64,000 bases of DNA from contig NZ_CP060828.1 in the NCBI RefSeq assembly GCF_014489635.1, forward strand, positions 1,240,001 to 1,304,000, read 5' to 3'. The number at the start of each line of letters is the position of its first letter. Position 1 is the first letter of the stretch. The notes below the pieces were generated by a model. The model saw nothing but the letters and a program-made list of their open reading frames with translations, was not told the DNA's origin and ran no database searches. Shown piece after piece: positions 26,731 to 57,690 of the stretch. Made by a program: the position numbers and the translations under genes. This DNA is from Streptomyces roseirectus (GTDB taxonomy: Bacteria; Actinomycetota; Actinomycetes; Streptomycetales; Streptomycetaceae).

Positions 26731-26833
26731 GTGGTACATCACATGTCACATACGGGCCGGCGGTCGGGCGTGGTGGTACATCACACATCACATGCGAGCT
26801 GGCGGACGGGTGTGGTGTGTGACATATGTTGCG
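26731..26833. repeat. tandem 42-bp units with GTGGTACATCAC core
   Basis: Two consecutive 42-bp units (26731-26772 and 26773-26814), each opening GTGGTACATCACA, are followed by a decayed third (GTGTGTGACATATGTTGCG). The interior shares CATACGGGCCGGCGG versus CATGCGAGCTGGCGG. They lie in the 306-nt gap between the TTA gene and the ATP-binding protein. These are the first members of the dispersed family described in the findings. Confidence 0.85.
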
Positions 26834-27002
26834 CCCCCGCGCCCCCTGAGCCACCCTGAAATCACGTCACTCTGGGTTTACCGGCGATAACGCTGCGAAC
26901 CAGCCCGCCGGCCACGACAGCAGCCGGCCGCTGCGCGGGACGCGCTGCCGAAACGATCCGAACTCCGTGTTCTTCCGGACCTCACGCCGGGGAGTCGCAG
27001 CC

Positions 27003-27527
27003 GTGATCAGCAACCCGAACAGGCAGTGCACGGTGGAGCTGCAAGCCCTGCCGGCGCGGATCGGCCAGGTCCGCAGAATCGTTACCGCGCACTTGCGCTA
27101 CTGGCAGCTCGATCCGCTCATAGACCGGGCCGCGCTCGGTGTGACGGAGCTCCTGGCCAACGTCCACCGGCATGCGCGGCCGGACAAGACCTGCGTCGTC
27201 GAGATGGAACTGCTGCACGGGGCGCTGACCGTCTCGGTGCACGACGGCGATCCCCGTCTGCCGGTGATGACGCGGGCCGACGACACCGGCGACCCTGGCG
27301 ACATCGACGCGCTCGCCACCTGCGGCCGAGGGCTCGCGCTGGTGGCCGCGGTGAGCGAGAGCTGGGGGGCGCGGTCGGAGGGGGAGAGCGGGAAGGTCGT
27401 GTGGTTCACGCTGTCGGTGCCGGGTGCGGTGGGGGGCGGGGGGAATGTGATGGGTGATGTACCACTGCGGGAACTCGCCGCTCCGCAGAGCGTCGCGGAG
27501 CCGCAGCGCTGGGCGGCGCGGGTCTAG
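27003..27527 (+). CDS. HATPase_c ATP-binding (anti-sigma-like) protein
   Basis: 174-aa single-domain GHKL ATPase similar to RsbW/SpoIIAB-type anti-sigma kinases that abound in Streptomyces. The N-box is DRAALGVTELLANVHRHA, then HDGDPRLPVM and CGRGLALVAAVSESWG. Start GTG 27003 follows GGGGAG. The C-terminal tail after VVWFTLSVPG is atypical and contains a copy of the dispersed motif (27454-27465) encoding GDVPL. No partner sigma factor or antagonist is adjacent. Confidence 0.85.
   Translation: MISNPNRQCTVELQALPARIGQVRRIVTAHLRYWQLDPLIDRAALGVTELLANVHRHARPDKTCVVEMELLHGALTVSVHDGDPRLPVMTRADDTGDPGDIDALATCGRGLALVAAVSESWGARSEGESGKVVWFTLSVPGAVGGGGNVMGDVPLRELAAPQSVAEPQRWAARV
27454..27465. repeat. dispersed motif inside ATP-binding gene
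   Basis: Exact GTGATGTACCAC, preceded by a second partial unit (AATGTGATGG), within the 3' part of the ATP-binding CDS. It is read as GGT GAT GTA CCA CTG. The frame is kept and the residues fall in the non-conserved tail. Confidence 0.9.
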
Positions 27528-27641
27528 GGGCCTTTGTCAGAAGGGACTTGGGCGCTTTCCAAGCCTCCGGTGCACGCCTAGGGTGGTCAGGTCCCGGACG
27601 TCGGGCCGGGGGCGGGTGAGGGAGGGGTCGTCATCGACCGG

Positions 27642-28430
27642 GTGGAAGTCAACGGCGTCGAGGCGGACGGCGCGGACCTGAGGCTGCTGGCCAGGACGAG
27701 TTACGCGCACTTCACCTCGATGCAGGTGCGGGGCGGCGCGGTCCGGGGGCTGGACCTGCATGTCGAGCGGCTGGACGAGAGCGCGCGTGAACTGTTCGGC
27801 AGAGGGCTGGACGCCGAGCGGGTGCGGTCGTGCCTGCGGCACGCCGTGGCCGGGGGTCCGGACGCGGTGTCGGTCCGGATCACCGTTTTCGCCCGGCGGA
27901 TGGACGCCGTGTCGCGCGGGGAGGCCGTGGAGCCGGAGATCGCGGTGGCGGTCGGCGCTCCGGCCGAGGCGGAGACCGGTCCGCTGCGGCTGCGTTCGGT
28001 GGAGTACGAGCGTGATGTACCACATGTCAAACACGCCGGGACGTTCGGTCTCGTCCACCAGCGGCGGCAGGCGGCTCTCGCCGGGTACGACGACGCTCTG
28101 TTCACCGACCGGCGCGGCCGGATCTCCGAGGCGTCGGTCTGGAACGTCTGCTTCTACGACGGGGACCGGGTCGTCTGGCCCGAGGCCGCCGTGCTGCCCG
28201 GCATCACCATGCGGCTGCTGCGCCGGGGGCTGGAGGCCAAGGGCGTCCCGTGCGAGCGGCGTGAGATCCGGCTCGGCGACCTCACTCCGGCGCTGTCCGC
28301 CTTCCTCACGAACTCGATCTCGCCGGCACTGCCCGTCGCGAGCGTCGACGGCATGGACCTGACCGTCGACCCGGCGGCCACGAACCTCCTCCTGGACTGC
28401 TACGAGACCAACCCCTGGCAGCCGGTCTGA
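27642..28430 (+). CDS. aminotransferase class IV family protein
   Basis: 262-aa fold-type-IV PLP enzyme related to branched-chain aminotransferase/ADC lyase. The PLP Lys is in VPHVKHAGTFGLVHQRRQA; DDALFTDRRGRISEASVWNV, LPGITMRLLRRGLEAKGVPC and FLTNSISPALPVASVDG follow. Start GTG 27642 after GGAGGGG. A dispersed-motif copy (28012-28023) coincides exactly with the active-site stretch RDVPHVKH and uses rare codons GAT GTA CCA CAT. Co-directional with the ATP-binding gene. Confidence 0.85.
   Translation: MEVNGVEADGADLRLLARTSYAHFTSMQVRGGAVRGLDLHVERLDESARELFGRGLDAERVRSCLRHAVAGGPDAVSVRITVFARRMDAVSRGEAVEPEIAVAVGAPAEAETGPLRLRSVEYERDVPHVKHAGTFGLVHQRRQAALAGYDDALFTDRRGRISEASVWNVCFYDGDRVVWPEAAVLPGITMRLLRRGLEAKGVPCERREIRLGDLTPALSAFLTNSISPALPVASVDGMDLTVDPAATNLLLDCYETNPWQPV
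28012..28023. repeat. dispersed motif at aminotransferase active site
   Basis: Exact GTGATGTACCAC extending to CATGTCAAAC. It is read as CGT GAT GTA CCA CAT GTC AAA CAC, i.e. R-D-V-P-H-V-K-H. Relatives of this family have a similar peptide (DLPHIKH as I recall), so here the motif overlays conserved coding rather than adding residues. Confidence 0.9.
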
Positions 28431-28433
28431 GTT

Positions 28434-28467
28434 CCGGCCGCGGCCTCCCGGAGAAGGCCGCGGCCGG
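28434..28467 (+). terminator. intrinsic terminator hairpin
   Basis: A perfect 13-bp stem CCGGCCGCGGCCT / AGGCCGCGGCCGG with an 8-nt loop starts 4 nt after the aminotransferase stop. Confidence 0.8.
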
Positions 28468-28487
28468 TACGTCCACCGGGCACGGCT

Positions 28488-28550
28488 TCACTCCGCGTCC
28501 GCCTGGCGTGGTGTCACTCCGCGTCTGCCGGACGTGGTGTCACTCTGCGG
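28488..28550. repeat. 26-bp tandem repeat
   Basis: TCACTCCGCGTCYGCCKGRC GTGGTG occurs at 28488-28513 and 28514-28539, with a partial third copy running into the ABC-transporter remnant. It lies between the terminator and the scar. Confidence 0.8.
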
Positions 28551-28743
28551 CGACGGCCCCGAGCACGTTCAGCCGTGCCGCCCTGCGTGCCGGACGCAGC
28601 GCCGCCAGCACCCCGGCCGCGACCCCGACCGACGCCACCACCAGGAGCCTCAACCCCGGTACGGCGAAGGCGAATTCGCTGGTGTCACCGGCGCCGTACA
28701 CCTTCACGGCGTCGGTGACCCGCGCGGCGGTCGTGGCCGTCAT
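28540..28743 (-). pseudogene. ABC transporter deletion scar (ATPase start fused to permease end)
   Basis: A 67-codon frame. Its first ~22 residues (MTATTAARVTDAVKVYGAGD) are the N-terminus of a MacB-type ABC ATPase. Without a stop it becomes the C-terminus of an FtsX-like permease (FAVPGLRLLVVASVGVAAGV LAALRPARRAARLNVLGAVA AE). The Walker motifs and nearly all of the permease are missing, consistent with one in-frame deletion joining two neighbouring genes. Its ATG overlaps the stop of the upstream SHOCT frame (ATGA), the usual operon order. Non-functional. Confidence 0.8.
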
Positions 28744-28978
28744 GCCGCATCACCGCCCTTGCGCCCGAAGTGCTCTTCCAGGACGGACAGGCGGCGCCAG
28801 TACTCGTCCTCGCCGATGTCGCCGGAGGCGAAGCGGCGGCCGAGGACGGCGAGGGACGCGTCACCGAGGGGGCGCGCGGTGCGGTCCACGCGTCGGGGGC
28901 CTGTCGTGCGGCCCAGAGCAGGGGGAACAGCAGGATCCAGGGGCCGGGGCCCCCGTAGCCGTTCGCAAAGGTGTTCAT
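28740..28978 (-). pseudogene. SHOCT-domain protein, frameshifted
   Basis: The N-terminus in one frame (MNTFANGYGGPGPWILLFPL LWAA) is a membrane segment. The C-terminus in another frame (SLAVLGRRFASGDIGEDEYW RRLSVLEEHFGRKGG) is a SHOCT domain. Together they form the small membrane protein that commonly precedes this ABC-transporter type in Streptomyces, but a frameshift near 28870-28910 breaks it. It decays together with the adjacent ABC scar. Confidence 0.75.
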
Positions 28979-29060
28979 CGCCGGTCATCTCCTTCGGCAG
29001 CGGTCGGTTCGTCGCTGTCGAGGCTGCCGCCGGGAGGGTGTCCGGGGCGTCGCACGGTCG

Positions 29061-29102
29061 GTGGTACATCACATACTCCCCGGGGAGTATGTGATGTACC
29101 AC
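29061..29102. repeat. perfect 42-bp palindrome of the dispersed motif
   Basis: GTGGTACATCACATACTCCC is followed by CG and its exact reverse complement, giving 21-bp arms with no mismatch. Both outer 12-mers are exact copies of the dispersed core, here joined by ACTCCCCGGGGAGT. It lies in the intergenic region between the SHOCT/ABC remnant and the TetR gene. It could be an operator, a cruciform, or a mobile element in its complete form. Confidence 0.95.
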
Positions 29103-29143
29103 GCACCACTCCCCCGGCGACCGGTCCGACCCGTCTGGCGCTC

Positions 29144-29163
29144 TGTACCTACTGGTATGTACA
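29144..29163. promoter_or_regulatory. probable TetR operator/promoter
   Basis: TGTACCTACTGGTATGTACA is a near-perfect 20-bp inverted repeat ending 8 nt before the TetR gene ATG. This is the usual place for an autoregulatory TetR operator overlapping the -10 region. The short leader suggests little or no 5' UTR. Confidence 0.65.
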
Positions 29164-29171
29164 GTGCCGCC

Positions 29172-29735
29172 ATGAGCACCCAGGAGCGTCTGATCGAGTC
29201 GACCCGTGAGCTGCTGTGGGAGCGCGGCTACGTGGGCACCAGCCCCAAGGCGATCCTGGAGCGCGCGGGCGCCGGGCAGGGCAGCATGTACCACCACTTC
29301 AAGGGCAAGCCCGACCTGGCGCTGGCCGCGATCCGGCGCACGGCCGAGGAGCTGCTGGCGAGCGCCGAGGCCGTCCTCGACTCGCCGGGCACGCCGTACG
29401 AGCGGATCGCGGCCTACCTGCGGCGCGAGCGTGACGTCCTGCGCGGCTGCCCGGTCGGCCGTCTGACGATGGACCCGGACGTCATGGCCGACCCCGACCT
29501 GCGTGCCCCCGTCGACGCGACGCTCGCCAGCATCCGCGCGCGGATCGCCGAGATCGTCGAACTCGGCAAGGAGCAGGGGCAGTTCGCGTCCACGCTGGAC
29601 GCCGGGGAGATCGCGTCGGCGGTCGTCGCGACCGTCCAGGGCGGTTACGTCCTCGCCCGCGCCTCCGGTTCGCCGGACGCGTTCGACGCGGGTGTCCGGG
29701 GCCTGCTCGCCCTGCTCGCTCCCCCGCGCCGGTGA
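29172..29735 (+). CDS. TetR/AcrR family regulator
   Basis: 187-aa repressor. The HTH is TRELLWERGYVGTSPKAILERAG with GSMYHHFKGKPDLALAAI recognising DNA. The C-terminal ligand domain includes RERDVLRGCPVGRLTMDPDV and ends LLALLAPPRR. It starts at ATG 29172, directly after its own operator-like palindrome. The next gene encodes a DUF4865 protein, a pairing I recall in actinomycetes, and a metal hydrolase follows. Confidence 0.9.
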   Translation: MSTQERLIESTRELLWERGYVGTSPKAILERAGAGQGSMYHHFKGKPDLALAAIRRTAEELLASAEAVLDSPGTPYERIAAYLRRERDVLRGCPVGRLTMDPDVMADPDLRAPVDATLASIRARIAEIVELGKEQGQFASTLDAGEIASAVVATVQGGYVLARASGSPDAFDAGVRGLLALLAPPRR

Positions 29736-29775
29736 CCAGCACGACCGCAGCGCCCGACCGGCCCGAGGAGCCCTC

Positions 29776-30363
29776 ATGCACGCCATGCAGTACGAACTCA
29801 CCTTCCCCGCCGACTACGACATGCGCGTCATCCACGCGCGCGTGGCCCGCGTCGGGCACCTCCTGGACGACTGGGACGGACTCGGCCTCAAGGCGTACCT
29901 CCTGCGCGAGCGCGGCACCGACGGCTCGCCCGTCAACCAGTACGCCCCGTTCTACCTGTGGGACACCACGCGGGGCATGAATCGTTTCCTCTGGTGCGGC
30001 CCGTTCCAGGGGCTGAGCGACGACTTCGGGCGGCCGGCCGTGCGGCAGTGGAGCGGTGTGGCGTACGAGGTCGGCGGCGCCGTCGGTTCTCCCGCCGCCG
30101 TCGCCGTGCGGCAGCGGGTGCCCGTGCCGCCGGACGGCGTCGTGTACGCCGACGTCATGGAGGGCGAGGCCGAGGCGGTCGGGAAGCTGGCCCAGCGGGA
30201 CGGGGTGATCGCGGCCGCCGCGGGGGTGGACACCGCGCGGTGGGAGATCCTGCGGTTCTCGGTGTGGGCGCATGACGCGCCCGGCGTGGAGGGTGAGGTG
30301 TTTCGTGTGCTGCATCTGTCGACGCCGGGGTTGACGCGGCTGCCCCGGGGGCGCCAGTGGTGA
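29776..30363 (+). CDS. DUF4865 family protein
   Basis: 195-aa protein opening MHAMQYELTFPADYDMRVIH with GLGLKAYLLRERGTDGSPVN, FYLWDTTRGMNRFLWCGPFQ and WEILRFSVWAHDAP. This is the DUF4865 pattern, of unknown function, usually regulated by an adjacent TetR gene as here. The ATG follows GAGGAG. Its stop overlaps the next start (GTGA), so it is translationally coupled to the metal hydrolase. Confidence 0.85.
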   Translation: MHAMQYELTFPADYDMRVIHARVARVGHLLDDWDGLGLKAYLLRERGTDGSPVNQYAPFYLWDTTRGMNRFLWCGPFQGLSDDFGRPAVRQWSGVAYEVGGAVGSPAAVAVRQRVPVPPDGVVYADVMEGEAEAVGKLAQRDGVIAAAAGVDTARWEILRFSVWAHDAPGVEGEVFRVLHLSTPGLTRLPRGRQW

Positions 30364-31271
30364 GGGCCGTCCGCACAGTGGTGGGTGATGTACCACCCGA
30401 CCGGCTCGGCGTCTGTGACGCCCACGACCACCTCTTCCTCAGCAGCCCGCGCCTCCCCGGCGAGGAGCTGCGCAGTGTCGGCGCCGCGCGGGCGGAGCTG
30501 GCCGCGTTCCGGGCGCTGGGCGGCGGCGCGGTGGTGCAGTGGACGCCGTACCGGATGGGCCGGCGGGCCGCCGATCTCCCGCCGCTCGCACGGGAGTCGG
30601 GGGTGCACATCGTCGCCGCGACCGGGCTGCACCAGGCTCAGCACTACGACGAGGCGATCCTCAAGGCGGTGCGCGGGCCCCGGCTCGCCGAACTCTTCGT
30701 CGCCGAACTCACCACGGGGATAGGGCTGTCGGGGGTGCGGGCCGGGTTCGTGAAGGTGGCCGGCGGGTTCCACGCGCTGGATCGGCACGCCCGCTGGACC
30801 ATGACGGCCGCCGCCGAGGCCTACCACGCGACGGGCGCGCCGATCGCCGTCCATCTGGAGCTGGGGACGGGCGCGCCGGACGTGCTCGACCTGTTGTGCG
30901 GGGAGTTGGGGGTGCCGCCGGAGCGGGTGGTGCTGGGGCATCTCAACCGCGCACCCGATCTTCTGACACATCGTCATGTGGCCGCGAGTGGTTGCTACTT
31001 GGCGTTCGACGGCCCGTCCCGTGCTCATCACGCCACCGACTGGCGGATGCCGGACGCCGTACTCGCCCTCGTCGAGGCCGGGTTCGGGGACCGGTTGCTC
31101 CTCGGGGGTGATACAACGACCGCCGGTGCCAGGTCGGTGAACGGCGGGCCCGGGATGCCGTATCTGTTGCGCCGGGTGCGGGAGCGGTTGGCGGCGGTCG
31201 TCGGGGCGGAGGCGGTGGGGCGGATGGTGACGGAGAACGCGGGGCGGGCGTTCTCCGTGGAGTGGCGGTGA
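30360..31271 (+). CDS. phosphotriesterase-like metal-dependent hydrolase
   Basis: 303-aa TIM-barrel amidohydrolase of the phosphotriesterase-related family. The metal ligands are visible: DAHDHLF (HxH), K in AGFVKVAGG, H in VHLELGTG, H in LGHLNR, and D in LLGGDTTT. Natural substrates are typically lactones or related esters; not resolvable here. GTG 30360 overlaps the DUF4865 stop; GTG 30357 is equally possible. Codons 9-12 contain a dispersed-motif copy (30385-30396), read as G-D-V-P-P. Confidence 0.85.
   Translation: MRAVRTVVGDVPPDRLGVCDAHDHLFLSSPRLPGEELRSVGAARAELAAFRALGGGAVVQWTPYRMGRRAADLPPLARESGVHIVAATGLHQAQHYDEAILKAVRGPRLAELFVAELTTGIGLSGVRAGFVKVAGGFHALDRHARWTMTAAAEAYHATGAPIAVHLELGTGAPDVLDLLCGELGVPPERVVLGHLNRAPDLLTHRHVAASGCYLAFDGPSRAHHATDWRMPDAVLALVEAGFGDRLLLGGDTTTAGARSVNGGPGMPYLLRRVRERLAAVVGAEAVGRMVTENAGRAFSVEWR
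30385..30396. repeat. dispersed motif at start of hydrolase gene
   Basis: Exact GTGATGTACCAC within GTGGTGGGTGATGTACCACC, read GGT GAT GTA CCA CCC. Flanking bases extend it to an imperfect palindrome. Confidence 0.9.
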
Positions 31272-31334
31272 GGGCCGACCCTCGCTGATCCGTGCGTGGC
31301 GGGCCGGCCAACTGCCGCTCGCGGCACCGGAGTT

Positions 31335-32216
31335 CTAACCAGCGTCCGGCTCGAAGCTCGCGAAGTAGGCCGCCGCCATGTCCTCGTCCCCGTGTCCGGC
31401 GGCAGCCGCGCGTGCCAGTCGTTCGGCGGCGGCCTCGGCGACGTCGAGACGGACGCCGTGCGTCCGTCCCGCCTCGACGATCAGCCGGGCGTCCTTCTCG
31501 GCCGTCGTCACGCCGAACTGGGCCGGGGACAGGCGGTCTTCGAGGATGAGCGCGGACTTGGCGTGGAGGTAGCCCATGTCGAGAGGGCCGCCGGTGATGA
31601 GGGCGAAGAAGTCCCGCGGGTCGACGTCGAGCGCTTGGGCGAGGGAAAGGACCTCGCCGGTGGCGGCGGTGGCGGCCAGCACCCAACTGTTGGCGACCAG
31701 CTTGAGGCGGGTCGCTCCGCCGGGTTCCTCGCCGGTCCACACGGTGCGGGCGCCGACCGCGTCGAACACCGGGGCGACGGCGGTGCGGTGTGATGCATCA
31801 CCGGCCGCCAGCACCGTGAGCTGTCCCGCCTCGGCCGGCTGCCGGGTGCCGAGGACGGGCGCGTCGAAGAACACCAGGCCGTGGTCACGGGCGAAGCCGG
31901 CGAGTTCGGCCACCGAGTCGAGCGCGACGGTGGTCGACTGCACCCACAGGGTCCCCTCCCCCAGCCCCGGTGCCGCATCACACATCACGTCCCGCACGGC
32001 GCCGCCGTCGTACAGCATCGTCACGACGGCATCCGCGCCGCGCACCGCCTCGGCGGCGGAGTCCACGACGGTGACCCCGTCGGCGGCCAGCGGTTCGGCC
32101 TTGGCGCGGCTGCGGTTCCAGGCGCGGACGGTGTGTCCCGCGCGGGCGAGGTTGCGGGCCATCGCGGCGCCCATGATGCCGGTGCCGAGGACGGTCACGG
32201 TGAGTTTCTCGGTCAT
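31335..32216 (-). CDS. NAD(P)-dependent oxidoreductase, 3-hydroxyisobutyrate dehydrogenase-like
   Basis: 293-aa beta-hydroxyacid dehydrogenase. The Rossmann start is TVTVLGTGIMGAAMARNLAR with the NADP-type NRSRAKAE, then DAPVLGTRQPAEAGQLTVLA and the catalytic Lys region ATRLKLVANSWVLAA. Substrate unknown. Two dispersed-motif variants lie inside: GTGATGCATCAC at 31790-31801 (G-D-A-S) and GATGTGTGATGCGGCACC at about 31973-31990 (C-D-A-A-P), both in the same phase as elsewhere. Confidence 0.9.
   Translation of the reverse strand: MTEKLTVTVLGTGIMGAAMARNLARAGHTVRAWNRSRAKAEPLAADGVTVVDSAAEAVRGADAVVTMLYDGGAVRDVMCDAAPGLGEGTLWVQSTTVALDSVAELAGFARDHGLVFFDAPVLGTRQPAEAGQLTVLAAGDASHRTAVAPVFDAVGARTVWTGEEPGGATRLKLVANSWVLAATAATGEVLSLAQALDVDPRDFFALITGGPLDMGYLHAKSALILEDRLSPAQFGVTTAEKDARLIVEAGRTHGVRLDVAEAAAERLARAAAAGHGDEDMAAAYFASFEPDAG
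31790..31801. repeat. dispersed motif variant, 12-bp palindrome
   Basis: GTGATGCATCAC, a perfect palindrome inside the oxidoreductase gene, is identical to the copy at 35613-35624 in the AlkB-like gene. A related block, GCATCACACATCACGTC, lies at 31975-31991. Confidence 0.8.
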
Positions 32217-32426
32217 GGCGTCAGCTTCCTGATGCGGTGCGGGTTGTCCTGCCCATCCTCCCTGCTCACGCCCGCCTCACGCGAATCGACGCGGCCCGCT
32301 GGCGTCACAGCGCGGACGGCGCCGTCCGTGAACTCGACGGTCACGAAGGGATGTTGGCGCTGGTGACCCTCGGCTACGGCGCCTGGTCATGGCGGCGCCG
32401 TGGAGCCTCACCGCACTTAATTGACC

Positions 32427-32444
32427 GGTCGTTCTTGAATGACC
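32427..32444. promoter_or_regulatory. TetR operator (autoregulation)
   Basis: GGTCGTTCTTGAATGACC is an imperfect 18-bp inverted repeat 12 nt upstream of the TetR gene. A closely matching site (GACCGAACGTTCTCGAAAGG at 33109) precedes the SDR gene, which supports a shared operator. The rest of 32217-32426 shows no gene I can support. Confidence 0.65.
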
Positions 32445-32456
32445 TAGCCTCCTCGC

Positions 32457-33044
32457 ATGGCGAGGACAAAGGAATTCGACCCGCACGCCGCTCTCCAGGC
32501 AGCTCTGGAGCTGTTCTGGCGACGCGGTTACGAGGCCACTTCGATGGCCGACCTCGTCGAACACCTCGGTATCGCACGCGCCAGCATCTACGCGACCTTC
32601 GGCAGCAAGCACGACCTGTACCTGAAGGCCCTGGACCGCTACGGCGAGCTTCACCACCCAGTGCTGGTACGGGAGTTGTCCGCGCCGGGTCCCGCCCTGC
32701 CTGGCGTCCGGGCCGTCGTGCGTCGGTTCGCCGACGAGTCCACCGCCGAACCCGGCCGCGCGTGCGGCTGTTTCGTCGTCAACACGGCCGTCGAACTCGC
32801 CCCGCACGACCCGGCCGCCGCCCGCCGCGTCGACCTCGGCTGGGAACACCTGGAGACGCTGCTGCACGCCGCGCTCGAACGGGCCCAGGCGCAGGGTGAG
32901 TTGACGCCGGACCGCGACCCTCGCGCGCTCGCCCGGATGCTGCTGGTCTTCCTCCAGGGGCTGCGGGTGGTCGGCAAGGCGTCGACCGATCCGACGGCAC
33001 GGCTGCGCGACGCGGTGGAACAGGCGCTGACGCTTCTCGACTGA
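32457..33044 (+). CDS. TetR/AcrR family regulator
   Basis: 195-aa repressor. The HTH has LELFWRRGYEATSMADLVEH LGIARASIYATFGSKHDLYL KALDRY, the YcdC/LmrA-like subgroup. The C-terminal domain has ACGCFVVNTAVELAPHDPAA. It probably represses itself and the downstream SDR gene through the paired sites at 32427-32444 and 33109-33131, as is common for this TetR subgroup with a neighbouring oxidoreductase. Confidence 0.9.
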   Translation: MARTKEFDPHAALQAALELFWRRGYEATSMADLVEHLGIARASIYATFGSKHDLYLKALDRYGELHHPVLVRELSAPGPALPGVRAVVRRFADESTAEPGRACGCFVVNTAVELAPHDPAAARRVDLGWEHLETLLHAALERAQAQGELTPDRDPRALARMLLVFLQGLRVVGKASTDPTARLRDAVEQALTLLD

Positions 33045-33067
33045 GCCCCCTCGGGCGGCCCCTCTCC

Positions 33068-33103
33068 AGCTCGGCCCTGCCCAAAAGCTCAGCCCTGCCC
33101 AAA
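33068..33103. repeat. 18-bp tandem duplication
   Basis: AGCTCRGCCCTGCCCAAA occurs twice back to back (33068-33085, 33086-33103) immediately upstream of the SDR operator-like site. It may be a simple duplication affecting promoter spacing. Confidence 0.8.
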
Positions 33104-33108
33104 TTCAA

Positions 33109-33131
33109 GACCGAACGTTCTCGAAAGGACC
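33109..33131. promoter_or_regulatory. TetR operator-like site upstream of SDR
   Basis: GACCGAACGTTCTCGAAAGG followed by ACC aligns with the site before the TetR gene (GACCGGTCGTTCTTGAATGA CC). It ends 3 nt before the SDR ATG and overlaps the ribosome binding region. Confidence 0.6.
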
Positions 33132-33134
33132 TTC

Positions 33135-33902
33135 ATGTCTCCCCAGCGCTTCACCCACCGCACCGCGCTCGTCACCGGTGCCGGCTCCGGCATCGGCCGC
33201 GCCCTCGCGCTCGCCTTCGCCGCCGAGGGAGCGAACGTCGTGGTCGCCGGACGCACCCGCGCCGCCCTGGACGAGACCGTCGCGCTCGTCGAGGAGGCGG
33301 GCGGCACCGCGCTCGCGCACGCCGTCGACGTGACGGACGCCGCCGGCGTCGACGCACTCGTCCGGGCCGCCGTCGAGCGGTTCGGTTCGCTGGACGTCGC
33401 GGTGAACAACGCCGGCGTCATCCGCGCCGGACTCCCGCTCGCCGACATGGAGTTGGCCGACTGGCACTCCGTCATGGACACCAACCTGACCGGCCTCTTC
33501 CTCGCCCTGCGCGCCGAGATACGGCAGATGCGCGCCCAGCCGCGCGGTGGCACGATCGTCAACGTCGCCTCGAACCTCGGGGCGCACACCCAGAAACCCG
33601 GCACCACCGCCTATTCCGCGAGCAAGGCCGCCGTCGCCTCCCTCACCCGGGGCGCCGCCCTGGAGCACATCGCGGACGGCGTCCGCATCAACTCCGTGAG
33701 TCCGGGCGTCACTCGGACCGCCATGTCTTTGCTGCCGGGCGAGACGGAGGAGGGCCGGGCGGCGCGGATGAAGGAGCAGTCGCCGCTCGGACGGAGCGTC
33801 GCGACCGATGAAGTCGCCCAGGCCGTCCTGTACTTGGCGTCGGACGACGCGGCTCCGGTGGTCGGCGCGGACCTGGTGATCGACGGCGGCACGTCCCTCT
33901 GA
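33135..33902 (+). CDS. SDR family oxidoreductase
   Basis: 255-aa classical short-chain dehydrogenase/reductase. Cofactor motif TGAGSGIGRALALAFAAEG with an Arg after the second strand (VAGRTRA), suggesting NADPH. NNAG, catalytic Ser in VNVASN, and YSASK are intact, and the C-terminal VVGADLVIDGGTS is complete. Probably repressed by the adjacent TetR protein and induced by its substrate or a related ligand. Confidence 0.92.
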   Translation: MSPQRFTHRTALVTGAGSGIGRALALAFAAEGANVVVAGRTRAALDETVALVEEAGGTALAHAVDVTDAAGVDALVRAAVERFGSLDVAVNNAGVIRAGLPLADMELADWHSVMDTNLTGLFLALRAEIRQMRAQPRGGTIVNVASNLGAHTQKPGTTAYSASKAAVASLTRGAALEHIADGVRINSVSPGVTRTAMSLLPGETEEGRAARMKEQSPLGRSVATDEVAQAVLYLASDDAAPVVGADLVIDGGTSL

Positions 33903-33940
33903 CCGACGGCGCAGGGCATCCGGACGGCGGTCCCGGCCCG

Positions 33941-35182: not shown

Positions 35183-35982
35183 GAGGGCGAGTCTCCCATG
35201 ATCCGCTCGGCGCCGTGGCCGTGCGCGAAACCGCTGACGCGCAGCGTCACGTTCAGCCGTCCGACGAGCCCGAGACCGGCCGGCGCCGTCCCCGGGAGCA
35301 CCCTCGGTACCGCGTGATATGCCATACGTGACGCACCACCGAACACGAACAGGTCCCCGCTGCGCAGCTCGACGTCCGTGTACGGCCGCCCCCGCGTCTC
35401 GGTGTTCCCGAACCGGAACACGCACCGGTCCCCCAGGCTCAGCGACACGACCGGCGCGTCCGACCGCTCGTCGGCGTCCTGGTGCATGCCCATGCGGGCG
35501 TCGCCGTCGTAGAAGTTGACGAGCGCGATGTCGTAGGGCGGCCAGGGTGCCGGTGGTGTGTCACACACCACTGCGGGGGACGGTGGTACATCACGCACTA
35601 CCGAGTGGGCCAGTGATGCATCACATACCACCGGCCGCACCGGCACCGGCCCCCGCACCGCCTCCGTCGCGTACGCCTCCCGAACCGCCCTGCGCCCCAG
35701 CTCCCCCAGCCACGCGGGAAAAGGTTTCACCGCGCTCCCGTCCCCGTCGGACACCGTCCGGGAGTACCCGTACGGGTACCAGTGCCACCCCAGGCAGACC
35801 TGGCGCGCGGTCATGGTGCCGCCGCCGGGTGTGCGGACGGTCCGCAGGCCGGCCGGCGGTCGTGCCCAGGCGCGGCACGCTTCGAGGAGTTCGCGCTGGG
35901 CGTCGGCGTCCAGCCAGTCGGGTACGTGCACGGCACCCGGCGCGACCTGCGCGCGTTCGCGGGGAAACAGCTCGGCGTCCAT
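35179..35982 (-). CDS. AlkB-like 2OG-Fe(II) oxygenase with in-frame repeat insert
   Basis: 267-aa AlkB-type dioxygenase, expected to repair alkylated DNA or RNA by oxidative demethylation. Fe ligands: MHQDAD (HxD) and the distal His in MAYHAVPRVLPG. The 2OG Arg is in RLNVTLRVSG. FYDGDARMGMHQD is canonical. Residues ~118-147 are three 10-residue repeats (VVCDASLAHS, VVRDVPPSPA, VVCDTPPAPW), encoded by the dispersed motif and placed just before PPYDIALVNFY where relatives appear to be shorter. ATG 35982 is preferred over 36000. Translationally coupled to the ROK gene. Confidence 0.88.
   Translation of the reverse strand: MDAELFPRERAQVAPGAVHVPDWLDADAQRELLEACRAWARPPAGLRTVRTPGGGTMTARQVCLGWHWYPYGYSRTVSDGDGSAVKPFPAWLGELGRRAVREAYATEAVRGPVPVRPVVCDASLAHSVVRDVPPSPAVVCDTPPAPWPPYDIALVNFYDGDARMGMHQDADERSDAPVVSLSLGDRCVFRFGNTETRGRPYTDVELRSGDLFVFGGASRMAYHAVPRVLPGTAPAGLGLVGRLNVTLRVSGFAHGHGAERIMGDSPS
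35542..35631 (-). repeat. three in-frame 30-bp repeats in AlkB-like gene
   Basis: Units at 35602-35631, 35572-35601 and 35542-35571. The cores are GTGATGCATCAC (35613-35624), GTGGTACATCAC (35583-35594) and the palindrome GTGGTGTGTCACACACCAC (35553-35571, 9-bp arms). A 30-bp period keeps the reading frame exactly. Confidence 0.92.
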
Positions 35983-50969: not shown

Positions 50970-51160
50970 GATGGTCTACTGCTCCCGATCAAGCCGCCTG
51001 CCGCACCTGTCCACCCGCATCCTACGGCGGAGATCACCGGGGCCCTCCGGTGAGGCCCCGCAGGCCCGAGCGCGTACGCTCGCTGCCAGATCCCCGCCGT
51101 ACGGACCCGTACGAACGCGGGTTCACCCCGTACAACGTCGCACCCACGAGGAGCGTGCCC

Positions 51161-52516
51161 ATGTCGTCGAAATCGGTCGCCGAGACCGTCGCCTCCCTGA
51201 TGCCCAGGGCGCAGGCGGAGCTGGCCGAGCTGGTGGCCTTCCGGTCGGTGGCCGACTTCGGGCAGTTCCCGCGCGCGGAGAGCGAGGCCGCCGCGCGCTG
51301 GATCACCGACGCCCTCGCCGCCGAGGGCTTCCAGGACGTCGCCGTCCTGGACACCCCGGACGGCACCCAGTCCGTGTACGGCTACCTGCCGGGCCCCGCG
51401 GGCGCGCGCACGGTCCTGCTGTACGCCCACTACGACGTGCAGCCCCCGCTGGACGAGGCCGCCTGGACGAGCCCGCCCTTCGAACTGACCGAGCGCGACG
51501 GGCGCTGGTACGCGCGCGGGGCCGCCGACTGCAAGGGCGGTGTGATCATGCACCTGCTCGCGTTGCGCGCCCTCAAGGCGAACGGCGGGGTCCCGGTGCA
51601 CGTCAAGTTCATCGCGGAGGGCTCCGAGGAGCAGGGCACCGGCGGCCTGGAGCGCTACGCCGAGGCCCACCCGGAGCTGCTGGCGGCCGACACGATCGTC
51701 ATCGGGGACGCCGGCAACTTCCGTGTCGGCCTGCCCACCGTCACGGCCACCCTGCGCGGCATGACGATGCTCCGGGTCGGCGTCTCCACCCTGGAGGGCA
51801 ACCTGCACTCCGGCCAGTTCGGCGGCGCCGCACCGGACGCCCTGGCCGCGCTGATCCGCGTCCTGGACTCGCTGCGCGACAAGGACGGCTCGACGACCGT
51901 GGACGGGCTGACGTCCGACGCCCACTGGGACGGCCTCCAGTACGACGAGGAGCAGTTCCGCAGTGACGCCCGGGTCCTCGACGGCGTCGACCTGATCGGC
52001 TCCGGGACGGTCGCCGACCGCATCTGGGCGCGCCCCGCCGTCACCGTCCTCGGCATCGACTGCCCGCCGGTCGTCGGCGCCACCCCCTCCGTGCAGGCGC
52101 ACGCCCGCGCGCTGGTCAGCCTGCGCGTCCCGCCGGGCACGGACGCCGCCGAGGCGACGAAGCTCCTGCGCGCCCACCTGGAGGCGCACACGCCGTGGAA
52201 CGCGCGCGTGGAGGTCGAACAGGTCGGCCAGGGCCAGCCGTTCAGCGCCGACACCACCAGCCCGGCGTACGCGGCGATGGCCGACGCCATGGCGGTCGCC
52301 TACCCCGGTGAGGAGATGCAGTACGCCGGCCAGGGCGGGTCGATCCCCCTGTGCAACACCCTCGCGGCGCTCTACCCGCGCGCGGAGATCCTGCTCATCG
52401 GGCTCAGCGAGCCGGAGGCCCAGATCCACGCGGTCGACGAGAGCGTGTCTCCCGAGGAACTGGAGCGGCTGTCGGTGACGGAGGCGCTGTTCCTGCGCAA
52501 CTACGCGGCGAACTGA
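51161..52516 (+). CDS. M20 family dipeptidase
   Basis: 451-aa metallopeptidase. Metal ligands in YAHYDVQP (HxD), RGAADCKGG (bridging Asp), the general base in AEGSEEQGTGGL, and a C-terminal His in AQIHAVDE. The dimerisation lid domain covers about 190-330. Cytosolic broad-specificity dipeptidase similar to CNDP/PepV relatives. ATG after GAGGAG. Confidence 0.93.
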   Translation: MSSKSVAETVASLMPRAQAELAELVAFRSVADFGQFPRAESEAAARWITDALAAEGFQDVAVLDTPDGTQSVYGYLPGPAGARTVLLYAHYDVQPPLDEAAWTSPPFELTERDGRWYARGAADCKGGVIMHLLALRALKANGGVPVHVKFIAEGSEEQGTGGLERYAEAHPELLAADTIVIGDAGNFRVGLPTVTATLRGMTMLRVGVSTLEGNLHSGQFGGAAPDALAALIRVLDSLRDKDGSTTVDGLTSDAHWDGLQYDEEQFRSDARVLDGVDLIGSGTVADRIWARPAVTVLGIDCPPVVGATPSVQAHARALVSLRVPPGTDAAEATKLLRAHLEAHTPWNARVEVEQVGQGQPFSADTTSPAYAAMADAMAVAYPGEEMQYAGQGGSIPLCNTLAALYPRAEILLIGLSEPEAQIHAVDESVSPEELERLSVTEALFLRNYAAN

Positions 52517-52523
52517 CCGCCCC

Positions 52524-53543
52524 GTGCGCGTGCGCCTGACCGTCCACGCCGCCGTGTCGGCCGCCCTCGCCCGCCTGGACGACGCCGGCCTCACCGCCCT
52601 CCTCGACACGGGCACGCCGCTCGGCACCGGCGTGGGCGGCGCGACCGCGCGCGTGGAGGTCGCCGGGCACCCGGTGTTCGTGAAGCGGCTCCCGCTGGCC
52701 GACGCGGAACGGCACCGCTCGACAGCCGACGTGTTCGGCCTCCCGCCCGCCTGCCACTACGGCATCGGCGCCGTCCCGAGCCCCGGGTTCGGCGCCTGGC
52801 GGGAGCTGGAGGTGTACGAGACGACCACCCGGTGGGCCGTCTCGGGCCGCTTCCCGGGGTTCCCGCTGCTGCGCCACGCGCGCGTCCTGCCCGCCACCCC
52901 GGCGGACCGCTCCGACGCCTACGCCGAGCGGGCGGGCGCCTACTGGGGACCGGCCGTCCGCGCGCGGGTCGAGGCCCGTGCGACGGCGACGGCGAACCTG
53001 CTCCTGTTCCTGGAGTACGTCCCACAGACCCTGCACGACTGGCTGCGCGCTCAGGTGCACGGTCCCCGCCCGGACGAGGCGTGCGCCCTGGTGGACCGTC
53101 AACTGACCGCGCTGACGGACTTCCTGGGCACCACCGGCCTCGTCCACTTCGACACCCACTTCCGCAACGTCCTCACCGACGGCCGGCGCCTCTACCTCAC
53201 CGACCACGGCCTCGCCCTCTCCACCGGCTTCGACCTCACCCCGCGCGAACGGGCCTTCCACGCCGCCCACCGCACCTACGACGACGCCTACACGCGCGCG
53301 TACCTGGCCCGCTGGCTGGTCACCGAGTTCCACGGCGGCGGCGCCGACCGGCTGGCCCGCCTGCGCGCGTACGCGGACGGCGCGCGTCCCGAGGGGATGC
53401 CGGACGCGGTGGCCGGACTGGTCCGGCGGCATGCCGCCGTGGCGGCGGTGATGGAGGAGTTCGAGTCACGGCTGGGCCAGGACTCCTCGGCCGTCTTCCC
53501 GGCGGAGGCCGTACATCGGCTGCGCACGGACCGGGGAGCCTGA
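52524..53543 (+). CDS. protein kinase-like/aminoglycoside phosphotransferase-like protein
   Basis: 339-aa protein with kinase-fold landmarks: PVFVKRLPLA (ATP-binding Lys), LVHFDTHFRNVLTD (catalytic loop with Asp and Asn), and LTDHGLALS (metal site DHG in place of DFG). No glycine-rich loop is obvious beyond GTGVGGATARV. Substrate unknown; a small-molecule kinase or a divergent Ser/Thr kinase are both possible. GTG start 7 nt after the dipeptidase stop. Confidence 0.75.
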   Translation: MRVRLTVHAAVSAALARLDDAGLTALLDTGTPLGTGVGGATARVEVAGHPVFVKRLPLADAERHRSTADVFGLPPACHYGIGAVPSPGFGAWRELEVYETTTRWAVSGRFPGFPLLRHARVLPATPADRSDAYAERAGAYWGPAVRARVEARATATANLLLFLEYVPQTLHDWLRAQVHGPRPDEACALVDRQLTALTDFLGTTGLVHFDTHFRNVLTDGRRLYLTDHGLALSTGFDLTPRERAFHAAHRTYDDAYTRAYLARWLVTEFHGGGADRLARLRAYADGARPEGMPDAVAGLVRRHAAVAAVMEEFESRLGQDSSAVFPAEAVHRLRTDRGA

Positions 53544-53575
53544 CGGGCCGTCGGAGAAGCACCCCGCAAGGGCGC

Positions 53576-54631
53576 TCAGCAGGCTTCTCCGGCCACGGGA
53601 ACCCCCGCCTCCAGATAGACGGCCGCACCTCGCTCACGGGCCCGCAGAGCCCAGCACAGGCGTTCGTAGCGGGTGGGCGGGAGGAGGTCGGCGGCCTCCT
53701 GTTCGGTGACGAAGCGCCAGGCGCGCAGTTCGGGGCCCGGCAGGCAAAGGTTCGCGACGGCGCCGGCGTCGAGCGTGCCGCCGTCGAAGAGGAAGCGCAG
53801 ACCGCCGTAGCGGGGCGGCGAGGGCGGCTCCCAGTCGGCGACGAGCAGGCGGGGGACGTCCGTCAGGCGGATACCGGTCTCCTCCTCGACCTCGCGCACG
53901 CCCGCGCGCGCGGGTGCCTCGCCGGGTTCGACGACGCCGCCGGGGAACTCCCAGCCGGGCTTGTAGGTCGGGTCGACGAGCAGCACCCGGTCGTCCTCGT
54001 CGAACAGCAGCACCCCCGAGGCGATCGTCTCCGCCGTCGGCTCGGGCGTCTGGACGATGTCGCACGCCGGGACGACGCCCGTCCCGACGGCCTCCGCGAT
54101 GCGCTGGGCCGTCTCGTACGGGGTGAGGGCGCCGGTGTCGATGAGATGGGCGTCCGCCGTCAGCCAGGCAGCGAGGGCGGCCCGGTACGGCTCGATGTGG
54201 TCGTACGCCCACTGCCGTACCCGCATCTCGCCGTCGGGGAGGTCCGCCGGGACCGGACGGTTGGCTATGCGCTCTCGCAGTATCGTTTCAGCCGGGGCGA
54301 GGAGCACATGCCGTACCGGTATCCGGCGGGCGGCGAGGCCGCCGAAGATCTCGTCCCGGTACTCCTGGCGCAGCAGCGTCATCGGGACGACCAGCGTGCC
54401 GCCGACCTCGCCGAGCAGCGCGGCAGCCGTGTCGATCACCAGTCGGCGCCAGATCGGCAGGTCCTGGAAGTCGCCGACCTCGGCGAGGTGCTTGGCCGGA
54501 AGAAGCTGGGTGAGCGCCCCGCCGACGAACTCCGGGTCGAAGAGCGTGCTGTTCGGGATCAGATCGTTCAACTCCCGTGCGGTGGACGTCTTCCCCGCAC
54601 CGAACGCGCCGTTGATCCAGACGACACTCAC
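53576..54631 (-). CDS. P-loop kinase-Nudix fusion protein
   Basis: 351 aa. Residues 1-170 are a P-loop kinase domain opening VSVVWINGAFGAGKTSTARE L (Walker A), with VPMTLLRQEYRDEIF and a lid Arg cluster. Residues ~205-330 are a Nudix hydrolase with GGVVEPGEAPARAGVREVEE ETGI. Both active sites look complete. Phosphoryl transfer and hydrolysis of a nucleotide-type ligand are therefore combined in one chain. GTG 54631 follows GAGGGGG. Confidence 0.87.
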   Translation of the reverse strand: MSVVWINGAFGAGKTSTARELNDLIPNSTLFDPEFVGGALTQLLPAKHLAEVGDFQDLPIWRRLVIDTAAALLGEVGGTLVVPMTLLRQEYRDEIFGGLAARRIPVRHVLLAPAETILRERIANRPVPADLPDGEMRVRQWAYDHIEPYRAALAAWLTADAHLIDTGALTPYETAQRIAEAVGTGVVPACDIVQTPEPTAETIASGVLLFDEDDRVLLVDPTYKPGWEFPGGVVEPGEAPARAGVREVEEETGIRLTDVPRLLVADWEPPSPPRYGGLRFLFDGGTLDAGAVANLCLPGPELRAWRFVTEQEAADLLPPTRYERLCWALRARERGAAVYLEAGVPVAGEAC

Positions 54632-54729
54632 GTTTCCCCCTCTTCCGTCGGCCCCCTGAGGCTTGCCCGTTCCACCCTGCCACGGAAACCAGTTCCCGTT
54701 GAGGACGTCGAGCACCAGGGGAGAACACC

Positions 54730-54760
54730 GAGGCACCGGCCCCTCCAGGACCGGTGCCTC
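54730..54760 (-). terminator. intrinsic terminator hairpin
   Basis: A perfect 10-bp stem GAGGCACCGG / CCGGTGCCTC with an 11-nt loop, 22 nt after the stop of the small secreted protein gene. Confidence 0.78.
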
Positions 54761-54781
54761 GCGTTTCCCAGGAGCGTCGGT

Positions 54782-54976
54782 TCAGCCGCCCTGCCCCAGG
54801 GCGTCGTCGTCCACGGCCAGGCTCTCGTCGGCCACCGCGTGGTCCAGGCTGCTGAGCGTGTCCCCCACGTCGAGCCCCCCGAGGCTGTCGTGGTCCACCC
54901 CGTGCGAGGGCGTGATCGCCGCGACGACGAACCCGGTGGCCAGGGAGGCGATGGCAAGCATGCTGCGCTTCTTCAT
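54782..54976 (-). CDS. small secreted peptide
   Basis: 64-aa protein: signal peptide MKKRSMLAIASLATGFVVAA followed by a mature ~40-residue acidic, Ser/Leu/Asp-rich peptide (GGLDVGDTLSSLDHAVADES). No recognised family. The 290 nt upstream (54977-55266) hold no further gene I can support. Confidence 0.6.
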   Translation of the reverse strand: MKKRSMLAIASLATGFVVAAITPSHGVDHDSLGGLDVGDTLSSLDHAVADESLAVDDDALGQGG

Positions 54977-55266
54977 GCCCGCTTCAACGGACGACGCGGG
55001 GGTGAGGTCACGCACGGGTTCGGGAGTGCGTGGTGAGAGAGGTTTGGTGGGAGGGGGCTCCGCGCGCGGGCGACGACCTCGCGGATGCCACGCACGCCCT
55101 GCCCGGGCGCCCGCCCCGTAACCGGCCCTCCACGCGTGCGTGCCGCCCGACGCGGGCGCGTGCCCTCGCGCGCGTGCTGCTCACTTCGACGTCAGCGGCT
55201 GTCCCGCTTCTCAGTGGCTGCCCTGCCCCGCCGAGGCCGCAGTCCCCACCCGACCGACGCCCGCCC

Positions 55267-56220
55267 CTACACCCCCGCCGCAGCCGCCCCCTCGCGCCGC
55301 CCCAGGGCCGCCGCGGCAGCCCCCACGAGCCCCGCGTCCGTGCCCATCTGCGCGGGGACGACGGTGAGCCCCTGGACGAAGGAGAGGGTGGCGTAGGAGG
55401 CGAGGTGGCGGCGGAGCGGGGCGAAGAGGACGTCGCCGGCCTTGCCCACGCCGCCGCCGATGACGGCGATGTCTATCTCGACCAGTGTCGCGGTGGCCGC
55501 GATGCCCGCCGCGAGGGCCTGGGCGGCGCGGTCGAAGGCGGCCAGGGCCGCCGGGTCGCCCGCGCGGGCGGCGGCGGCGACCGCGGCGGCGGTGGTGTCG
55601 CCGTCGGGCCCGGGACGCCAGCCGTTGTCGAGGGCGCGGCGGGCGATGTGGGGACCGCTGGCGATGCGCTCGACGCACCCGCGCGCGCCACAGGGGCACA
55701 GGTCGCCGTCGAGGTCGACGGAGATGTGACCGATGTGCCCGGCGTTGCCGGTCGGCCCCGGGTGAAGACGGCCGTTGAGGACGAGACCCCCGCCGACACC
55801 GGTCGAGACGACCATGCAGAGCGCGTTGTCGTGCCCGCGCGCGGCCCCCTGCCAGTGCTCGGCGGCGGTGATCGCGACCCCGTCGCCGATCAGCTCTACA
55901 GGCAGCTCACCGGTGACCGCGCGCACACGCGCGACGAGCGGGAAACCGCGCCAGCCGGGCACGTTGACCGGGCTCACGGTGCCCGCGGAGGCGTCGACGG
56001 GGCCCGCGCTGCCGATCCCGACGCTGTGGACGCGGGTCCACAGGGGCGACGCGGTCAGCTCCCCGAGCACCGCCTCGACGGCGCCCATCACGGTCTCACC
56101 GTCCTCCCGCGCGGGAGTCGGCCGCTGCGCGCGGACCAGGATCGCGCCGTCGCCGTCCACCAGGGCTCCGGCGATCTTGGTGCCGCCGATGTCGAGCGCG
56201 GCCACGAGGTCGGTATGCAT
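55267..56220 (-). CDS. ROK family sugar kinase (glucokinase-like)
   Basis: 317-aa ROK kinase. ATP motif ALDIGGTKIAGALVDGDG, ROK signature VSTGVGGGLVLNGRLHPGPT GNAGHIGH, and zinc site CPCGARGCVE. No HTH, so an enzyme rather than a repressor. Divergent from a LacI regulator with a shared operator at 56323-56334, which suggests sugar-induced expression. The exact sugar is not determinable. Confidence 0.9.
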   Translation of the reverse strand: MHTDLVAALDIGGTKIAGALVDGDGAILVRAQRPTPAREDGETVMGAVEAVLGELTASPLWTRVHSVGIGSAGPVDASAGTVSPVNVPGWRGFPLVARVRAVTGELPVELIGDGVAITAAEHWQGAARGHDNALCMVVSTGVGGGLVLNGRLHPGPTGNAGHIGHISVDLDGDLCPCGARGCVERIASGPHIARRALDNGWRPGPDGDTTAAAVAAAARAGDPAALAAFDRAAQALAAGIAATATLVEIDIAVIGGGVGKAGDVLFAPLRRHLASYATLSFVQGLTVVPAQMGTDAGLVGAAAAALGRREGAAAAGV

Positions 56221-56322
56221 CAAAGTCTCGGTTCTCCCCAGGTCAACCGGCGAAAAGGGCTGGCCGGTCCAGCGGTGGGGGACGTGGACCGGAGAAGGCG
56301 TTGGACAGTCTCCCCCGCATCT

Positions 56323-56334
56323 GACAACGTTGTC
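56323..56334. promoter_or_regulatory. LacI-family operator
   Basis: GACAACGTTGTC, a perfect 12-bp palindrome with the central CG typical of LacI operators, lies between the divergent ROK kinase and LacI genes. GGACAGTC nearby (56303-56310) may be a half site. Confidence 0.75.
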
Positions 56335-56444
56335 CAGGCTCTATGCTCGACGCCACATCCTCATACAACCCCAGGGATCGCGCGACCCCCCGCAAACCCG
56401 GACATCGCCGTACCCCGAGGCCGACAGGAACAGGACACCGCATC

Positions 56445-57494
56445 GTGACAGAGACGCCCCGACGCGCCCCCTCCCTGACCACCGCCCGCTACGGCAACCG
56501 TCCCACCATGAAGGACGTCGCCGCGCGCGCGGGTGTCGGCCTCAAGACCGTCTCCCGGGTGGTCAACGGCGAACCGGGGGTGACCCCCGAGACCGAACGG
56601 CGCGTCCAGGAGGCCATCGACGCGCTCGGCTTCCGCCGCAACGACAGCGCGCGCGTGCTGCGCAAGGGGCGCACCGCGAGCATCGGGCTCGTCCTGGAAG
56701 ACCTCGCCGACCCGTTCTACGGCCCGCTCAGCCGCGCCGTCGAGGAGGTGGCACGCGCGCACGGTGCCCTGCTCATCAACGGCTCCAGCGCCGAGGATCC
56801 CGACCGCGAGCAGGAACTCGCGCTGGCACTGTGCGCGCGGCGCGTGGACGGGCTCGTGGTGATCCCCGCCGGCGACGACCACCGCTACCTGGAGCCCGAG
56901 ATCAAGGCGGGCGTCGCAACGGTGTTCGTCGACCGTCCGGCCGGGCGGATCGACGCGGACTGCGTCCTGTCCGACAACTTCGGCGGCGCCCGCGAAGGCG
57001 TCGGCCACTTCATCGCGCACGGCCACCGGAGAATCGGGTTCATCGGCGACATGCCCCGCATCCACACGGCCGCCGAGCGCCTGCGCGGCTACCGGGCCGC
57101 CATGGAGGACGCCGGGATAGCGGTCGAGGACGCCTGGATGTCCCTCGGCGTCACCAGCCCCGACCGGGTGCGCCGGGCCGCCGAGGAGATGCTGTCGGGG
57201 CCCTCGCCGGTCACCGCGATCTTCGCCGGCAACAACCGGGTCACCGTCACCGTCATCCGCGTCCTCGCCGAGCACGCCCGCCGCGTCGCCCTCATCGGCT
57301 TCGACGACCTCGAACTCGCCGACCTCCTCCAGCCCGGCGTCACCGTCATCTCCCAGGACGCCGCCGTCATCGGCCGCACCGCCGCCGAACGCCTCTTCCA
57401 GCAGCTCGAAGGCGTCGGCACCGCCCCTGAGCGCATCGTCCTGCCGACCCGCCTGATCACGCGAGGGTCGGGGGAGCTGCCGCCGGCGGACTGA
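56445..57494 (+). CDS. LacI family transcriptional regulator
   Basis: 349-aa repressor. HTH TMKDVAARAGVGLKTVSRVV NGEPGVTPETERRV with the hinge DSARVLRKG; periplasmic-binding-like domain GLVLEDLADPFYGPLSRAVE to GFDDLELADLLQPGVTVI. Likely represses itself and the divergent ROK kinase gene. GTG 56445 gives a normal ~20-residue lead before the HTH. Confidence 0.93.
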   Translation: MTETPRRAPSLTTARYGNRPTMKDVAARAGVGLKTVSRVVNGEPGVTPETERRVQEAIDALGFRRNDSARVLRKGRTASIGLVLEDLADPFYGPLSRAVEEVARAHGALLINGSSAEDPDREQELALALCARRVDGLVVIPAGDDHRYLEPEIKAGVATVFVDRPAGRIDADCVLSDNFGGAREGVGHFIAHGHRRIGFIGDMPRIHTAAERLRGYRAAMEDAGIAVEDAWMSLGVTSPDRVRRAAEEMLSGPSPVTAIFAGNNRVTVTVIRVLAEHARRVALIGFDDLELADLLQPGVTVISQDAAVIGRTAAERLFQQLEGVGTAPERIVLPTRLITRGSGELPPAD

Positions 57495-57512
57495 GGGGGC
57501 TGAGGGGGGCGG

Positions 57513-57690
57513 GTGGTACATCACGCGTGATGTACCGGGGGCACGCGGGGCGGGGCGTGATGTGTGATGCATGACGCGCGACTCCCTCCAGCCGTACGGC
57601 GTGACGCATGACATGTGATGTGTGATGCATGACGTGTGGTGTGCGACGCGTGACACGCGACATGTGATGTGTGATGTCCTATCCCCCCTC
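57513..57690. repeat. palindrome and array of the dispersed motif
   Basis: GGTACATCACGCGTGATGTACC (57515-57536) is a perfect 22-bp palindrome holding one exact core (57513-57524). It is followed by three copies of GTGATGTGTGATG (57557, 57615, 57664) mixed with GCATGACG and GTGTGCGACGCGTGACAC. The spacing is uneven (58 and 49 bp). It fills the 214-nt gap between the LacI gene and the next CDS. Confidence 0.9.

Follow-up and report, generated by a model that had tools for sequence, protein, structure and literature searches.

The stretch considered here, called the window, comprises 64,000 nucleotides (chromosome positions 1240001-1304000) of the 9,947,447-base, single-contig genome of Streptomyces roseirectus, and carries a dispersed family of short, partly palindromic sequences lying both between and inside genes. 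A preliminary description had recognized this family by a 12-mer, GTGGTACATCAC, in nine exact copies, with the variants GTGATGCATCAC (31790 and 35613) and GTGGTGTGTCACACACCAC (35553) and an array at 57557-57676, all of which were found. Its statement that such a word should be rare is also borne out, since matches with at most two mismatches number 18, whereas 100 dinucleotide shuffles average 2.30 (maximum 7), and an order-2 Markov model predicts 0.0045 exact copies in the window, where 9 are observed. The family is thus real, the 12-mer being only a part of its unit, namely a 19-bp dyad, roughly GTRNNR-YRT-S-AYR-YNNYAC, which stands within runs of 7-bp half-sites. The sites in the window are as follows (window coordinates).

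26731..26830, intergenic array with dyads at 26731 (GTGGTACATCACATGTCAC), 26773 (GTGGTACATCACACATCAC) and 26812 (GTGGTGTGTGACATATGTT), the second starting 42 bp after the first
27447..27465, dyad GTGATGGGTGATGTACCAC, close to where a HATPase_c_2 gene ends (26967-27527, plus strand)
28012..28030, dyad GTGATGTACCACATGTCAA within a class IV aminotransferase gene (27642-28430, plus strand), with rare codons
29061..29102, perfect palindrome of 42 bp preceding a TetR gene, with inner part TACCTCCCGGGGAGTA
30377..30397, run of half-sites (AGTGGTGGGTGATGTACCACC) where a PTE-family gene begins, made by substitutions only relative to 6 of 7 aligned relatives
31783..31801, dyad GTGCGGTGTGATGCATCAC within an NAD-binding dehydrogenase gene (31335-32216, minus strand), gapless in 2 of 4 aligned relatives
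31970..31988, dyad GTGCCGCATCACACATCAC in the same dehydrogenase gene (31335-32216, minus strand), gapless in 3 of 4 aligned relatives
35313..35340, row of four half-sites of alternating direction in 7-bp register, within a conserved stretch of an AlkB-like gene
35553..35631, three dyads at 30-bp intervals (35553, 35583 and 35613) in the linker of the AlkB-like gene
57513..57720, array directly 3' of a LacI-family gene, with a perfect 22-bp palindrome (57515-57536), half-site runs (57556-57576 and 57600-57676) and a dyad at 57702

Sites occur in spacers, several of them just 3' of stop codons, and in coding sequence. Their history was judged locus by locus from the relatives that align (4 to 14), and both insertions and substitutions are found. 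The palindromic form GTGRTRYAYCAC is not present in the syntenic stretches (16-17.5 kb each, 240 kb together) of any of the 14 relatives fetched; for 26731-26830 the spacer itself was read in 13 of these 14. The four half-sites at 35313-35340 differ by substitutions only from all 14 aligned relatives. The AlkB-like linker measures 134 bp here; among 29 relatives it ranges from 17 to 104 bp, with 13 of them at 26 bp, these lengths being projected from alignments and a few of them uncertain. The lone exception to the lack of sites at the aligned window loci of relatives is G193, with a single dyad, GTGGTACGTCACGTGCCAC, in this linker where the source genome has three units. At the 42-bp palindrome, the inner TACCTCCCGGGGAGTA is kept in 6 of 8 aligned relatives without the motif flanks, while both flanks are replaced by the motif here, in an alignment that is gapless on the left in 8 of 8 relatives and on the right in 4 of 8; judged from these alignments, the inner part is the older and the flanks are new.

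Outside the window, an EF-G-like gene (chromosome 1695940-1698288) carries five units in a 70-residue stretch that separates the G domain from domain II and is not found in the best PDB match, and a glycosyltransferase gene carries another five. A repeat maintained at the protein level was considered and ruled out, the same DNA being read as VMRDVPPAG-, VVRDVPP- or SHTTGGAS-like repeats. Since the frames differ between genes, conservation of proteins, which formed part of what the preliminary description had named as overturning its view, does not explain the sites. The rare codons at coding sites follow from the AT-rich motif itself and hence show only that the signal lies in the DNA; a strict test for synonymous changes found in the source genome only gave no significance at coding sites.

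Anatomy and confinement of the family

The arrangement of the units was quantified in 770 kb fetched around the site clusters (the zones) and in a control of 20 stretches of 20 kb (400 kb) from the same genome. Dyads are often strung in 7-bp register, with tandem units at 30, 36 or 42 bp. Same-strand ATCAC pairs at 7 bp number 24 in the zones and 0 in the control, and at 14 bp 14 and 1; for inverted AYCAC pairs, the zones have 30, 20 and 9 at 7, 14 and 21 bp, and the control has 3, 0 and 2. Half-site chains (total score at least 16, step 7) number 37 in the zones, 1 in the control and 0 in the 240 kb from the 14 relatives, and 20 column-permuted motifs yield 0-11 chains in the zones in the same scan. 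Other steps give at most 17 chains in the zones, the maximum being at step 14, which is twice 7, and some are somewhat raised (zones versus control: step 5, 14 versus 3; step 9, 12 versus 3; step 12, 9 versus 4; step 15, 11 versus 3). For 7-bp tandem repeats, runs of 10 or more number 10 in the zones, 2 in the control and 2 in the relatives. The form GTGRTRYAYCAC occurs at 28 places, all in the zones, and AYCACRCAYCAC at 36, one of them in the control. A 19-bp grammar, GTRNNRYRTSAYRYNNYAC, has 32 matches in the zones and none in the control; in relatives, it has 24 in 127 kb at the catabolic cluster described below and 1 in the 240 kb of the AlkB region.

Over the complete genome, the count that the preliminary description had proposed gives 19 exact 12-mers versus 0 of the reversed control, and these lie in two zones only (1.27-1.71 and 8.06-8.12 Mb overall), with 17 copies at 1.267-1.711 Mb and 2 at 8.060 and 8.115 Mb. 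The tandem word GTGATGTGTGATG has 10 exact copies here and one each in 2 of 99 other genomes; with one mismatch the count is 46 (control 0), of which 4 lie between 2 and 6 Mb. The looser pattern GTGGTACRTCACRY, with one mismatch, is found 64 times versus 9 for its reversed control, and in six relatives 19-37 times versus 11-21 (highest in G196, 37 versus 11). Both zones are distant from the parS cluster (4.93-5.01 Mb), by about 3.2-3.7 and 3.1-3.2 Mb, an apparently mirror-like placement. A perfect parS site also stands at chromosome 9885148, near the right end and far from this cluster.

Elsewhere in the genus, at least one copy of the 12-mer is present in 205 of 294 other sampled Streptomyces genomes (range 0-13). 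These copies were set aside as due to chance; of 5 such loci selected, 4 could be read, and 3 of these share the frame GVMYHDY, taken for a ketosynthase and hence for a coding coincidence. Heptad matches occur in 153 of 391 other genomes, many with equal reversed-control counts, and no genus-wide excess is claimed. Short tandem repeats of 7 bp that resemble these in their letters do occur in other Streptomyces; some of them directly follow a stop codon, and some include inverted copies. The pattern GTRGTRCATCACRCATCAC matched 22 stretches in genome_contigs, none titled Streptomyces, the source or very near genomes being possibly excluded from that collection.

A dyad shared with relatives at a catabolic cluster

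A catabolic cluster lies outside the window at chromosome 1703888-1709815, where a DAO-family oxidase, an FAD/2Fe-2S protein, a proline-racemase-family protein and a GntR/FCD regulator are neighbours. It is termed hydroxyproline-type by inference, as the best NCBIfam model of the proline-racemase-family protein, 4-hydroxyproline epimerase, scores 337 bits, below its cut-off of 376. Some match to the cluster exists in 382 of 384 genomes; 30 loci were kept for comparison, namely the source genome and its 29 best-matching relatives. In the source genome an array fills the spacer before the DHDPS-family gene (1706732-1706952); upstream of the same gene, 25 of the 29 relatives have a centred dyad with a TGTCAC-like core, e.g. 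TCAGTAATATGTCACACCCCACTGA, and our search found no such core there in the remaining 4.

A matrix trained on the dyads of these 25 relatives alone, and scanned over 1.17 of the 9.95 Mb of the genome, recognizes many of the dispersed sites. At thresholds of 12, 14 and 16, it finds 56, 36 and 31 non-overlapping sites in the zones versus 2, 1 and 0 in the control. The 56 spread over 28 zone loci, and 7 of the 31 strong sites (at least 16) lie in the window. Ten Markov-generated counterparts of the zones contain 6-13, 1-7 and 0-1 sites at the same thresholds, so that the list at 12 includes chance sites; none of 200 column-permuted matrices reaches 36 at 14. Over 400 kb each, two relatives have 3 (G262) and 5 (G193) strong sites. 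Of these 8, 6 are no more than about 3 kb from the cluster match: all 3 in G262, one of them a training site, and three in G193, which has another 27 kb off and one in AlkB. A second site outside the training set, upstream of gntR, is present in 13 of 30 relatives and missing in 17, and its scores (14.7-21.6) are those of many dispersed sites. The source genome keeps a site scoring 28.7 before the first gene of the cluster, and site 1703865 directly precedes the called gene start at 1703888.

The GntR/FCD gene (PF00392 and PF07729) occupies 1709120-1709815 and has an array beside it, starting at 1709828. Its product shares 69-82% identity with its counterparts in 30 relatives. Of the 45 winged-helix columns that are otherwise invariant it departs from 6 (any other sequence from at most 2), and of the 75 such columns of the FCD domain likewise from 6 (the others from at most 2). 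Two of the six winged-helix columns concerned, residues 61 and 81, are positions at which related proteins contact DNA.

Weighing of the explanations

Among the readings offered by the preliminary description (a mobile mini-element, an uptake or Chi-like sequence, the operator of one regulator), the last is favoured, because the matrix derived from 25 relatives finds the 31 strong sites in the zones and none in the control. The family would accordingly consist of operator-type sites at which a dimeric regulator binds, the most likely candidate being the FCD-type GntR protein encoded in the hydroxyproline-type cluster, and to this reading we assign a probability of roughly 0.55. The GntR protein would bind the dispersed sites. 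Point substitutions in nearly matching sequence may have created these, with tandem duplication then raising their number locally; selection at the DNA level (through titration, roadblock or looping between sites) could retain them. For the sites inside coding DNA, any role is a guess. What is unusual is the number of sites, their confinement to two zones, their coding positions and their drifted core. It is conceivable, if rather doubtful, that in one lineage a metabolic repressor of local scope now binds the chromosome regionally: its operator would have spread into the spacers and genes of two zones, one per arm, where the arrays would serve for titration or bridging and so fold or silence these zones.

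Several points weigh against the operator reading. Flanking genes have no obvious common function. Many positions are not those of promoters: 25 of the 56 sites at 12 or above fall within called coding sequences, by gene calls that are crude and in places wrong both ways, which is odd for operators, and several lie just 3' of a stop codon. Same-strand ATCAC pairs are not enriched at 21 bp (8 in the zones versus 6 in the control), and the tests with GTRNNRYRTSAYRYNNYAC are partly circular, since this grammar was derived from the source genome. The training dyads were picked by position and by a TGTCAC-like core of our own choosing, and among an earlier 50 permuted matrices at least one beat the real matrix (maximum 57 at 14). 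Strong site 1708428 is probably a coding coincidence common to G193, and the gntR-upstream site is missing in the source genome (best score 0.6). Among the dispersed sites the most frequent core is CATCACR rather than TGTSACA. Low scores in the dyad register (8.8 and 3.6) were also obtained for some of the exact 12-mers, the 3.6 case (28012) fitting a shifted register. Finally, the GntR protein is divergent over its whole length, so that divergence alone does not prove a changed specificity.

An origin as neutral or selfish short repeats, spreading by slippage and ectopic copying without a binding protein, is considered unlikely. It would account for the local tandem repetition at 30, 36 and 42 bp, for insertion into length-tolerant linkers and for short heptads such as (ACCACGC)n in other Streptomyces; however, dyads persist while the spacers between units vary, substitutions without length change occur in conserved DNA, 7-bp tandem repeats are rare in the genome's own control and in relatives, and the dyads match the relatives' operator-like sites. 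Movement by a transposase, as for repetitive extragenic palindromic (REP) or miniature inverted-repeat transposable elements, is highly improbable as judged from the sites themselves: the family is dispersed and palindromic, and the GTGG or GTAG with which units begin is similar to the foot of a REP element, but neither constant ends nor a constant copy length was seen, flanks and spacers differ between loci, and several sites are substitution-made, 30377-30397 (6 of 7 relatives) and 35313-35340 (14 of 14) having been replaced without change of length. An uptake or Chi-like sequence, expected to be evenly spread, does not agree with 19 of 19 exact copies in two zones, without counterparts at the relatives' loci. 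A viral, plasmid or phage source was tried and rejected: one pattern had 0 matches in viral contigs, and two plasmid searches and one phage search with arrays gave one 26-bp match (E 0.2).

There is a slender chance that the heptads serve a ribbon-helix-helix protein organizing chromosome arms, in the manner of the operators and parS sites of plasmid protein omega, whose sites we take to be unspaced 7-bp repeats with an ATCAC core, direct or inverted. The 7-bp register, both orientations and the core fit; the two zones are comparably distant from the parS cluster, and a CbiA/ParA-type P-loop gene (1693570-1694517) lies about 3 kb from the EF-G-like array. Yet this gene matches its profile only partly, the other 10 AAA_31 places are outside the zones, PF07764 has no genome match at E at most 10, and RHH_1 gave three places, one over cut-off, of which two in short frames are antitoxin-like in our judgement. 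Genome profile searches thus yielded no convincing ParA, ribbon-helix-helix or omega partner, and three in-register half-sites already make up the 19-bp GntR-type dyad.

The turnover of binding sites is mostly followed at single promoters, whereas the source genome seems to show an operator multiplied by tens, coding DNA included. As the relatives' operator-like sites, a likely regulator and many copy-free relatives are all available, a shift from local to broad regulator could be tested directly, and the system also suits a test of selection versus mutation as the driver of spread.

Comparable systems and minor observations

Operators of the FCD subfamily of GntR proteins, here represented by those of the hydroxyproline-type cluster, share the 19-bp dyad, the S centre and, in 25 of 29 relatives, the same cluster spacer; the present family differs in having 31 strong sites in 770 kb (3 and 5 in 400 kb of each of two relatives), many of them in or near unrelated genes, and in its commonest core, drifted to CATCACR. 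The omega heptads of plasmid pSM19035 have the same unspaced 7-bp half-sites, ATCAC core and direct and inverted orientations, whereas here the sites are chromosomal and dispersed, in a genome in which no omega-family protein (PF07764) was found. The sites of MatP (matS) and SlmA are likewise short palindromes (GTG...CAC), regional and many per chromosome, but the present ones were found as clustered arrays in one genome only. Cyanobacterial short tandemly repeated repetitive (STRR) heptamers are also lineage-specific heptamer arrays, and the stoperators of mycobacteriophage L5 are also dispersed sites of one repressor, found away from promoters as well; unlike both, the sites here match the operator-like dyad of a cellular gene cluster.

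Two further features of the window were noted. Positions 27430-28530, with the class IV aminotransferase gene, are mostly unaligned in the syntenic stretches of the 14 relatives, and the gene is possibly lineage-specific. The word GTAGAGCT occurs at 12497, 13854, 22005, 44229, 44379, 48525, 55892 and 61831, that is, 8 times versus 0.38 expected, an excess that is possibly codon-driven.

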